Shown here one piece after another: positions 35,813-38,339 of a DNA stretch of 64,000 nt (its first letter is position 1; the number at the start of each line of letters is the position of its first letter). Both the position numbers and the translations under genes were made by a program. The DNA is from Truepera radiovictrix DSM 17093 (GTDB lineage: Bacteria; Deinococcota; Deinococci; Deinococcales; Trueperaceae), in NCBI RefSeq assembly GCF_000092425.1, contig NC_014221.1:2857001-2921000 (forward strand), written 5' to 3'. Under the pieces are notes generated by a model that worked only from the letters and a program-made list of their open reading frames with translations, searched no databases and was not told the DNA's origin.

Positions 35813-36454
35813 CTAGAAGCCCTCGGCGATCTCCTCGAGGGTGTCCGTGTCGAGCAAGACGATCGAGCGGTAGCCCGACTCGATGAGCCCCTCGCTGCGC
35901 AGCTCGGTGATGATCTTCGAGACGCTTTCACGCGTGCTCGCGGTGCCCTCGGCGATGAGCTCGTGCGTCGCCGAGACGACGATGCGTCCCTCGTCGTTGC
36001 GGGTCGCGAGCGGCGTCTCCGAGAGGCTCATGAGGTAGCGCGCGACGCGCTGGCGCAGGTCACCCGTCTGGAGGTGATACTCGTAGTCCATGAGGCGCTG
36101 CATCTGGCGCGACAGCGACTGCGTGATGGTCATGAGGTCGCTGTGGTTGATCAGCTGCGGGTCGATCGCTTCGACCTGCGCGTTGGTGAGCGCTTCGGCC
36201 ATCTCCTCACGGCGGGCGTCCATAAAGGCTTCTTCGCCGAAGAAGTCACCGGGCATCACGTGGCGCACGGTCAGGATGCGCCCCTCGGGGGTCATCCGGG
36301 TAATGCGGATCAGGCCGTCGCGGACGCGAAACACCGACTGAGCGGGGTCACCGTTGTGATAAAGCGTCTGCTTCCGTTGAAAGCGCAGCATCTGGCTGGG
36401 CGCCTCGATAGGGACGTCGGTTTGTTTGGCAGCGTCGTTCATCGTGCTATTCAT
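35813..36454 (-). CDS. Crp/Fnr-family transcriptional regulator
   Basis: 213 residues. The cyclic-nucleotide-binding-type barrel includes KQTLYHNGDPAQSVFRVRDGLIRI, GDFFGEEAF and a long dimer helix, then a helix-turn-helix TASTRESVSKIITELRSEGLI. GEEA lacks the full cAMP-binding signature, so the ligand, if any, is uncertain; some Thermus relatives (SdrP type) work without one. AGGAGGCATC-type spacing (GGGAGGCATC) before the ATG. The upstream gap to the photoreceptor gene is about 190 bp on the same strand. Confidence 0.9.
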   Translation of the reverse strand: MNSTMNDAAKQTDVPIEAPSQMLRFQRKQTLYHNGDPAQSVFRVRDGLIRITRMTPEGRILTVRHVMPGDFFGEEAFMDARREEMAEALTNAQVEAIDPQLINHSDLMTITQSLSRQMQRLMDYEYHLQTGDLRQRVARYLMSLSETPLATRNDEGRIVVSATHELIAEGTASTRESVSKIITELRSEGLIESGYRSIVLLDTDTLEEIAEGF

Positions 36455-36639: not shown

Positions 36640-37530
36640 TCACGCGCGCATCACCCCCTTTTCAAGGACGAGGTCGTTAAAGCGTTCGACCGCCAAAGCC
36701 CCCTCTTCGGCGAGGAAGGTGCCGCCCAAGCTCTGCGCGAGCTCCGGCTGGCGGTTGAAAAAGCCGCCGCCGAAAGCGAGCACGGGGGCGATCCCTTGAA
36801 GGTAGCGGCGCCCCGCTTGCAGCTGCCGAAAGGCCTCGGGGGAGGAGGCCGAGATCATGACGCCTACGGGAGCGAGCTCGTCGGCCATCTCGCGCAGCTC
36901 TTTAAGCGGCGTGTTGGCCCCGACGTAGAGGACGCGGTAACCCGCGCGGCGCAAAAGCACCGCGAGGCAGAGCGCGCCGAGTTCGTGCTGCTCCGACGGG
37001 GCGCAGGCAATGATGACCATGGGCGCCCGTTTGGGGTTGCCCATCACGCTTAGCAGCGCCCGCAGACGCCCGTGGAGGTACGCGCTCGCGAAGTGCTCGG
37101 TCGTCGTCGACACCGCGCCGCGGTGCCACAGGGTCCCGATCTCGACCATCGTCTTGCGCACGAGCTCGAGCACCGTCTCAACCGGGTGCAGCGCGTGCGC
37201 TTCGCCGAGCAGCCTTTCGGCGGCGGCTTCGTCGAGCTGGACAAGCGCCCCGACGAGCCCCGCTTGCAGTTCGCTGAGCGTGCTCGGCCGCGCGGGGGCG
37301 GGCTCGAGCTGGCGCACGAGCTCGGCGGCGCGCGAAGCGGGCACCCCCTCGGCGATAAAGCGCTTCATCGCCTCGATAAGGCGCACGTCCTCGTCGCAGT
37401 AGAGCCGGTACCCCGAAGTCGAGCGTTCGGGTTTAGGGAAGCCGTAGCGCCGCTCCCACTGGCGCAGCGTGCTGCCCGACACCTTCGTACGTTCCTCGAC
37501 TTCGTTGACGGTGTAACGACCCCTACTCAC
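36640..37530 (-). CDS. carH: CarH-type B12-dependent photoreceptor repressor (MerR family)
   Basis: 296 residues from a GTG with GAGAGG upstream. N-terminal MerR DNA-binding domain: RYTVNEVEERTKVSGSTLRQ then WERRYGFPKP and STSGYRLY. Next is a four-helix domain with LWHRGAVSTTTEHFAS and a Rossmann B12 domain with SEQHELGALCLAVLL, GYRVLYVGANTP and a GGGFF turn. Trp135, His136, Glu145 and the lower-ligand His182 match the residues of Thermus CarH that cap and bind adenosylcobalamin. CarH tetramers repress in the dark and fall apart in light. Operator-like TGTACA sites lie in its promoter. No carotenoid gene is in the window. Confidence 0.9.
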   Translation of the reverse strand: MSRGRYTVNEVEERTKVSGSTLRQWERRYGFPKPERSTSGYRLYCDEDVRLIEAMKRFIAEGVPASRAAELVRQLEPAPARPSTLSELQAGLVGALVQLDEAAAERLLGEAHALHPVETVLELVRKTMVEIGTLWHRGAVSTTTEHFASAYLHGRLRALLSVMGNPKRAPMVIIACAPSEQHELGALCLAVLLRRAGYRVLYVGANTPLKELREMADELAPVGVMISASSPEAFRQLQAGRRYLQGIAPVLAFGGGFFNRQPELAQSLGGTFLAEEGALAVERFNDLVLEKGVMRA

Positions 37531-37596
37531 ACGCACCTCTCTCGCGATGGCCTCTCCACAGCGAGGTCTGTACAACCTCTGAACAAGCGTAGGGCA

Positions 37597-37624
37597 AGTA
37601 TAGCACCACCTTGTACAATGTCAA
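37597..37624 (-). promoter_or_regulatory. carH promoter with TGTACA site between -35 and -10
   Basis: On the minus strand TTGACA (37619-37624), a 16-bp spacer and TATACT (37597-37602) make a near-consensus promoter. The spacer contains TGTACA (37612-37617). Another TGTACA lies just downstream in the leader (37569-37574) and TGTACC upstream (37635-37640, plus-strand reading). A repressor bound there would block RNA polymerase, which implies autoregulation. Confidence 0.75.
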
Positions 37625-37740
37625 TACTGACAAATGTACCTAAGGGGTGGACTCAGGGACGCAAAAATGACCTTTTTGCTCGACTAACCTTGCACGTGAG
37701 CTGTGGAAGCTTTGTCCATAAGAATTGTGAGCTGCGTAGG

Positions 37741-37788
37741 ATTGTACCCGAGCTTGTACAAGGTTGTGTACGAGGTTGTGTACTGTCG
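37741..37788. repeat. Four 12-bp TGTAC direct repeats (operator-like)
   Basis: The units ATTGTACCCGAG, CTTGTACAAGGT, TGTGTACGAGGT and TGTGTACTGTCG follow each other with no gap; TGTAC begins at 37743, 37755, 37767 and 37779, an exact 12-bp period. This resembles the direct-repeat operators bound by CarH tetramers and shares the core with the sites in the carH promoter 130 bp away. The nearest downstream gene is rnhA. Confidence 0.75.
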
Positions 37789-37843
37789 CGCAGCGCCTAG
37801 CGTAGCGGGCCCCCCTCCGCGGCGCCGCCACGGTGCGGCGCGG

Positions 37844-37849
37844 TAGACT
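37844..37849 (+). promoter_or_regulatory. -10 box TAGACT of leaderless rnhA promoter
   Basis: TAGACT ends 7 nt before the rnhA ATG. The TGTAC array ends about 55 bp upstream of this box. Confidence 0.55.
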
Positions 37850-37856
37850 CGTGCCG

Positions 37857-38339
37857 ATGACGCTGACCGATTTCCCCCACCACCCCCCTGCGAAGGCGCC
37901 GCGCAAAGCGGTGCTCATCTACACCGACGGCTCGTGCGACACCGCCTCGCGGCGGGGCGGCTGGAGCTATCTGCTCGTCTACGGCGAGCACCGCAAGACC
38001 GCCTCGGGGTCTGCGAGCGACACGACAAACAACCGTATGGAGCTGACCGCCGCGGTCGAAGCGCTCTCGGCGCTGACCGAACCCTGCGCCGTGACCCTGG
38101 TGACCGACTCGCAGTACCTCAAAAAGGCCTTTAGCGAGGGGTGGCTGCGCAGCTGGCAGCGCAACGGCTGGCGCACGGCGGGAAAGCAGCCGGTCAAAAA
38201 TCGCGACCTCTGGGAGCGGCTGCTGGAACTCACCGCGCGCCACCAACTCACCTGGCGCTGGACCAGGGGGCACGCGGGAGACCCCGAAAACGAGCTCGTC
38301 GACCGCCTAGCGCTCCAAGCGCGGCAGCGCGGCCGCTAA
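37857..38339 (+). CDS. rnhA: Ribonuclease HI
   Basis: 160 residues. The catalytic acids are in order: Asp in IYTDGSC, Glu in NRMELTAAVEAL, Asp in LVTDSQYLKKAF and Asp near the end in ENELVDRLA, with the His-containing RGHAGDPENE loop. It removes RNA from RNA-DNA hybrids, including primers and R-loops. The basic-handle region WQRNGWRTAGKQPVKNRDLW is present. Start at 37857 fits the TAGACT -10 box; an in-frame ATG at 37833 lies upstream of that box. The stop overlaps the convergent peptidase gene by 4 bp. Confidence 0.95.
   Translation: MTLTDFPHHPPAKAPRKAVLIYTDGSCDTASRRGGWSYLLVYGEHRKTASGSASDTTNNRMELTAAVEALSALTEPCAVTLVTDSQYLKKAFSEGWLRSWQRNGWRTAGKQPVKNRDLWERLLELTARHQLTWRWTRGHAGDPENELVDRLALQARQRGR

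Follow-up and report, generated by a model that had tools for sequence, protein, structure and literature searches.

In Thermus thermophilus and Bacillus megaterium, CarH operators consist of three or four 11-bp direct repeats of the form nnnnTnnACAn, and in the published Thermus operator, which has three repeats, the -35 element lies within one of them (PMC9304148). In the Sorangiineae and Nannocystineae there are double CarH operators, each of which is reported to overlap putative promoter regions (PMC9304148). Published CarH operators are described as compact, promoter-overlapping blocks. The lac, gal and ara systems have remote auxiliary operators that work through DNA looping, and among the papers searched none was found in which CarH is combined with DNA looping. 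Here we consider a repeat array of Truepera radiovictrix that may be a CarH operator lying at a distance from the promoter it serves.

In the window, by which we mean the whole 64,000-nucleotide stretch of the T. radiovictrix DSM 17093 genome that was analysed, carH occupies positions 36640..37530 of the minus strand and encodes a protein with a MerR-type DNA-binding domain and B12-binding domains (PF13411, PF02607 and PF02310, all above their cut-offs). A search of the genome with CarH gave a single significant match; the protein's score against the NCBIfam CarH equivalog is 234 bits, below the 400-bit cut-off. Upon alignment to the solved T. thermophilus protein, TtCarH, the residues matching Trp131, His132, Glu141, His142 and His177 are conserved. 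Roles for Trp131, His132, Glu141 and His177 of TtCarH are described in PMC10442372, and the B12 and light-switch residues are kept in T. radiovictrix CarH.

The carH promoter, a strong one with the sequence TTGACA-N16-TATACT (37597..37624, minus strand; 11/12 matches), is overlapped by a CarH-type operator (37569..37640, minus strand) with units GGTACA at 37640-37635, TGTACA at 37617-37612, TGTTCA at 37585-37580 and TGTACA at 37574-37569. The second of these sits within the -35/-10 spacer, and the last two form an 11-bp-spaced pair downstream of the promoter. CarH-type 11-bp pairs with a single mismatch occur in the genome at the carH promoter only. Next come two pairs with 2 mismatches, one (TTGTACTTGATTTGTACT, 11-bp-spaced, L092, G000:C1:1161703-1161720) between a gcvT-like and a gcvH-like gene and one at another locus. 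Matches with 3 mismatches to the CarH pattern include TTATCCACA-type boxes, which are DnaA-box-like (G000:C1:2850310-2850338 and 1579-1596) and are possibly replication-origin elements.

Downstream of carH, on the same strand, is an ldrP-like gene for a CRP/FNR regulator (35813..36454, minus strand). Its product has the CRP/FNR fold and scores 225 bits against NCBIfam LdrP, below the 300-bit cut-off. The best solved relatives are 5i2d, which we take to be TTHB099, and 3b02 (E 5e-57). The crtB gene of T. radiovictrix (L146, G000:C1:2437232-2440996) lies apart from carH, unlike the Thermus arrangement, and no CarH-type direct-repeat pair was found near it. In T. thermophilus, light control of pigment is reported to run via LdrP (cited in PMC7662524); because there is no CarH-type pair near crtB, light control of pigment in T. 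radiovictrix would plausibly, by analogy, run through LdrP as well. On the other side of carH is rnhA, for ribonuclease HI (37857..38339, plus strand), whose -10-like TAGACT (37844..37849, plus strand) ends 7 bp before the ATG of a leaderless message; relatives have GGTAGCAT at this place.

Between carH and rnhA lies the array, a putative remote CarH operator at 37743..37784 to which no strand is assigned. The sequence-only reading had described four TGTAC units with an exact 12-bp period, and so they are: the TGTAC/GTACA units occupy 37743-37748, 37755-37760, 37767-37772 and 37779-37784, starting at 37743, 37755, 37767 and 37779. Its distances, about 55 bp to the rnhA promoter and 140 bp to the carH promoter, are also borne out, with 56 bp measured from the array end to the rnhA -10, and 118 bp (inner edge) or ~139 bp (centre) from the array to the carH -35, relative to which the units stand at -160, -148, -136 and -124. 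The pattern TGTAC-N7-TGTAC with <=1 mismatch has 7 matches in the window against 0.67 expected, a number reached in 0/100 shuffles. Exact copies occur five times in the whole genome (3,260,398 bp), three of them in the array; the remaining two are isolated pairs, and the genome holds no other run. Per genome, the chance expectation of four-unit runs is ~4e-7 for period 12 and ~7e-6 for periods 6-25. Only the 5-bp core is invariant across all four units; AGGTTG is also common to units 2 and 3, and unit 4 is the core alone. Two of the units, GGTTGTGTAC on either side of GA, look like a local 12-bp duplication, as do units 2-4. An Rfam search of the surroundings of the array at E<=1 returned a single chance microRNA match, ~1.9 kb off, and so no B12 riboswitch was found there. 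An LdrP-type palindrome was also tried and rejected, the best match in the array being imperfect (11/14) and the window as a whole having as many as 6.3 matches per kb that score >=9.5. The stretch 37800-37842, between the array and the rnhA -10, is GC-rich and partly palindromic, and similar GC-rich DNA is present at this place in several relatives (L026, L030 and L033).

How closely does the array resemble a canonical CarH operator? Like the operators of T. thermophilus and B. megaterium, it consists of tandem direct repeats with a TGTACA-type core beside the gene for a B12-binding MerR photoreceptor. Unlike them, it has a period of exactly 12 bp rather than 11, so that rotation along the helix over four units is ~154 degrees versus ~51, and the TnnACA core is complete in one of the four units only (unit 2, TGTACA), units 1, 3 and 4 being short of one end base on either strand. 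It also stands upstream of the promoter by more than 100 bp, in addition to the promoter-overlapping operator, and overlaps neither the -35 nor the -10 of a target gene, the carH -35 being 118 bp and the rnhA -10 56 bp away; its sole overlap with a promoter is with a weak promoter-like match. Because of the 12-bp period and the incomplete TnnACA cores, the array is best called CarH-operator-like; judged strictly, it does not qualify as a canonical CarH operator.

The Trueperaceae offer a comparison. Of 39 genomes of the family that were searched, 25 have a CarH, and the divergent carH/rnhA arrangement is kept at most informative loci. At Thermaceae-like loci, by contrast, the divergent neighbour of carH, as read from the sequences, is crtB, or a methyltransferase gene followed by crtB, so that rnhA as the neighbour of carH is, on the loci compared, a Trueperaceae arrangement. 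Distal sites were sought within the interval, on the upstream side of the carH -35, with a scoring scheme set by the palindrome TTGTACAA and with 10-12 bp as the allowed spacings. An identical scan of Thermus-like loci served as control, and at L143 it gave TGTACA at -11 and +11 around TTGACA at 0, in agreement with the published three-repeat layout. In most relatives with divergent carH and rnhA, the far half of the interval holds a TGNNCA direct-repeat pair spaced by 10-12 bp; of the 22 loci tested, about two thirds have a significant distal pair (p<=0.01). Fisher's combined p over the 22 loci is ~5e-21, a value that overstates the case because related genomes, here counted as independent, are not. 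Distal pairs are mostly spaced by 10-12 bp and promoter pairs mostly by 11 bp. In the scan no distal pair was detectable in L024, L042, L043, L044 or L087; it was borderline only in L027, L037 and L039, and the L040 interval is too short to hold one.

The array in its exact form is another matter. The sequence-only reading had drawn attention to its possible absence from close relatives, and the exact 12-bp array is indeed missing from L027, of the same genus, which has only weak distal sites at -133 and -115, and from L024, the closest CarH relative, which has no outstanding site in the distal half. The 12-bp period, the four copies and the exact place are thus not common to the nearest relatives, although sites of this class are common across the family.

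Which of the two divergent genes does the distal site serve? Counted from the first base of the carH -35, the distal pair of genus g4 stands at -81/-70 in 6/6 genomes and ranks top in each among 107-167 possible positions, even though between genomes the 50-bp spacer has diverged to identities of only 20-48%, one close pair (76%) excepted. In the same six genomes, the distance from the pair to the rnhA -10 is 61, 49, 78, 61, 96 and 36 bp. In genus g8 the pair stands at -84/-74 from the carH -35 in 3/3 genomes, with spacer identities of 52-68%. Because the distance to the carH -35 is fixed, that to rnhA variable (in g4) and the spacer diverged, the distal site in g4 and g8 is, by the measure of its spacing, anchored to the carH promoter. 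Across genera the distance from carH to the distal site differs, and helical phasing of the distal site against the main operator is not significant (p 0.10-0.31, eight lineages). A second site at constrained distance from the promoter is found in g4 and g8; the position in T. radiovictrix is common to no close relative. Nine rnhA upstream regions that lack a neighbouring carH have no repeat pair (p 0.13-1.0), and at the distal sites no promoter signal was found family-wide in either direction (combined p 0.31 and 0.25). Only in L041, where TATAAT lies inside the distal repeat pair and points toward rnhA (shuffle p < 0.01), is it plausible that the distal site includes a promoter for rnhA.

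On balance we think it probable that the CarH repressor uses the array as an auxiliary remote operator, and that the array is part of the regulatory region of carH-ldrP and not of rnhA. In the dark, AdoCbl-bound CarH would repress carH-ldrP at the promoter operator, as is expected from the known family and from the overlap of operator and promoter. The remote array would most likely add a second binding platform that cooperates with the promoter operator, and light, by breaking up the CarH tetramer, would release both sites. A fixed distance over a spacer that is not conserved, as in g4 and g8, is what would be required if the two sites were in physical contact. From sequence comparison we infer CarH binding at the array, interaction of the two sites, and repression as the outcome; bridging, wrapping and simple cooperative recruitment are equally compatible with the sequence and cannot be told apart. 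Of the earlier suggestion of a far operator that loops to the carH promoter, then, the assignment to carH is favored, by the fixed distance to the carH -35 and variable distance to rnhA in two genera and by the absence of such pairs at rnhA genes away from carH, and the looping is the inferred part.

The same comparison counts against light and B12 control of RNase HI, also raised in the sequence-only reading. Here the array would be an operator of rnhA, and CarH, bound between about -116 and -69 relative to the leaderless start, would modulate RNase HI with light and B12. The array is closer to the rnhA -10 than to the carH -35, its plus-strand unit TGTACAAGGTTG is directed to rnhA, the divergent carH/rnhA synteny is retained in much of the family, and in a few relatives the distal pair is near the rnhA -10 (~36 bp in L084; pair centre at 32 bp in L046). 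Yet among the genomes of one genus the pair keeps its place relative to carH but lies anywhere from 36 to 96 bp from the rnhA -10, the array is too distant upstream for simple occlusion, and rnhA elsewhere has a -10-like box and no array. We consider an rnhA operator unlikely.

Might the array instead control a second promoter of carH itself? Inside it, on the minus strand and directed toward carH, is the promoter-like TACACA-N18-TACAAT (37741..37770), a possible second, upstream carH promoter that CarH would repress as it would the main one. It is one of two promoter-like sites in 2 kb, where 0.2 are expected (shuffle p 0.05), and L027 shows TTCACA-N18-TAAGCT across its distal site. However, TACAAT is a product of the repeat unit itself, the match in T. 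radiovictrix is without family-wide support, as the combined p of 0.31 at distal sites indicates, and a base-exact distance to the first promoter would be needless if a second were served; such a promoter seems distinctly unlikely.

More doubtful again is that the array is a remnant, either the operator of a lost light-controlled gene divergent to carH, as the sequence-only reading had also offered, or a neutral 12-bp expansion of a CarH half-operator. The evidence for loss is circumstantial, namely the divergent crtB, or methyltransferase and crtB, of Thermaceae carH, and the likeness of units 2-4 to a recent 12-bp duplication, together with the lack of the array in the nearest relatives, would suit a neutral expansion. 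A relic, however, would not hold its distance from the carH promoter to the base pair while the spacer diverged, and that constancy, seen in two genera, is left unexplained. Finally, binding by another regulator such as the LdrP-like CRP/FNR protein, whose gene adjoins carH and whose T. thermophilus homologue binds TGT-N10-ACA (PMC7662524), is highly improbable, since the distal sites of the family are direct TGNNCA repeats, not TGT-N10-ACA palindromes.

Returning to CarH as the ligand of an auxiliary carH operator, a more specific proposal can be made, though only tentatively: Trueperaceae CarH tetramers may bridge two operators ~70-150 bp apart, so that the B12 photoreceptor would make, and light would break, a loop or an extended CarH-DNA complex at CarH's own promoter, with the four-unit 12-bp array as the partner site in T. 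radiovictrix. The resemblance to lac, gal and ara would lie in a main operator at the promoter and a second upstream site at constrained distance. Unlike in those systems, the proposed repressor is a light-sensitive MerR-type tetramer on direct repeats, and joint occupancy and phasing are putative here. The Trueperaceae would be like the Sorangiineae and Nannocystineae in having two CarH operators, here putative, in carotenoid/carH regions, and unlike them in that the distal site has no family-wide promoter signal and its spacing tracks the carH promoter. If there is a remote operator whose spacing is conserved to the base pair, the B12 photoreceptor would be acting at a distance, an action that could be probed in vitro by switching the light and that could be useful to optogenetic design; rnhA would become a less likely target. 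Fixed versus variable spacing also provides a comparative test of which divergent gene an operator serves.

Several other relatives have unusual arrangements. The carH promoter of L039 has four TGTACA-type units, at +7, +18, +28 and +39 (spacing 11, 10, 11), the densest CarH-type operator among the loci compared. A second, distant CarH-like match (G021:C1:711565-712386, 36% identity) occurs in one genome of the Trueperaceae, in which rnhA does not adjoin the main carH. Upstream of carH in L045 there are at least six TGTACA-type sites in two clusters, in a stretch from which rnhA is absent as far as it was examined.
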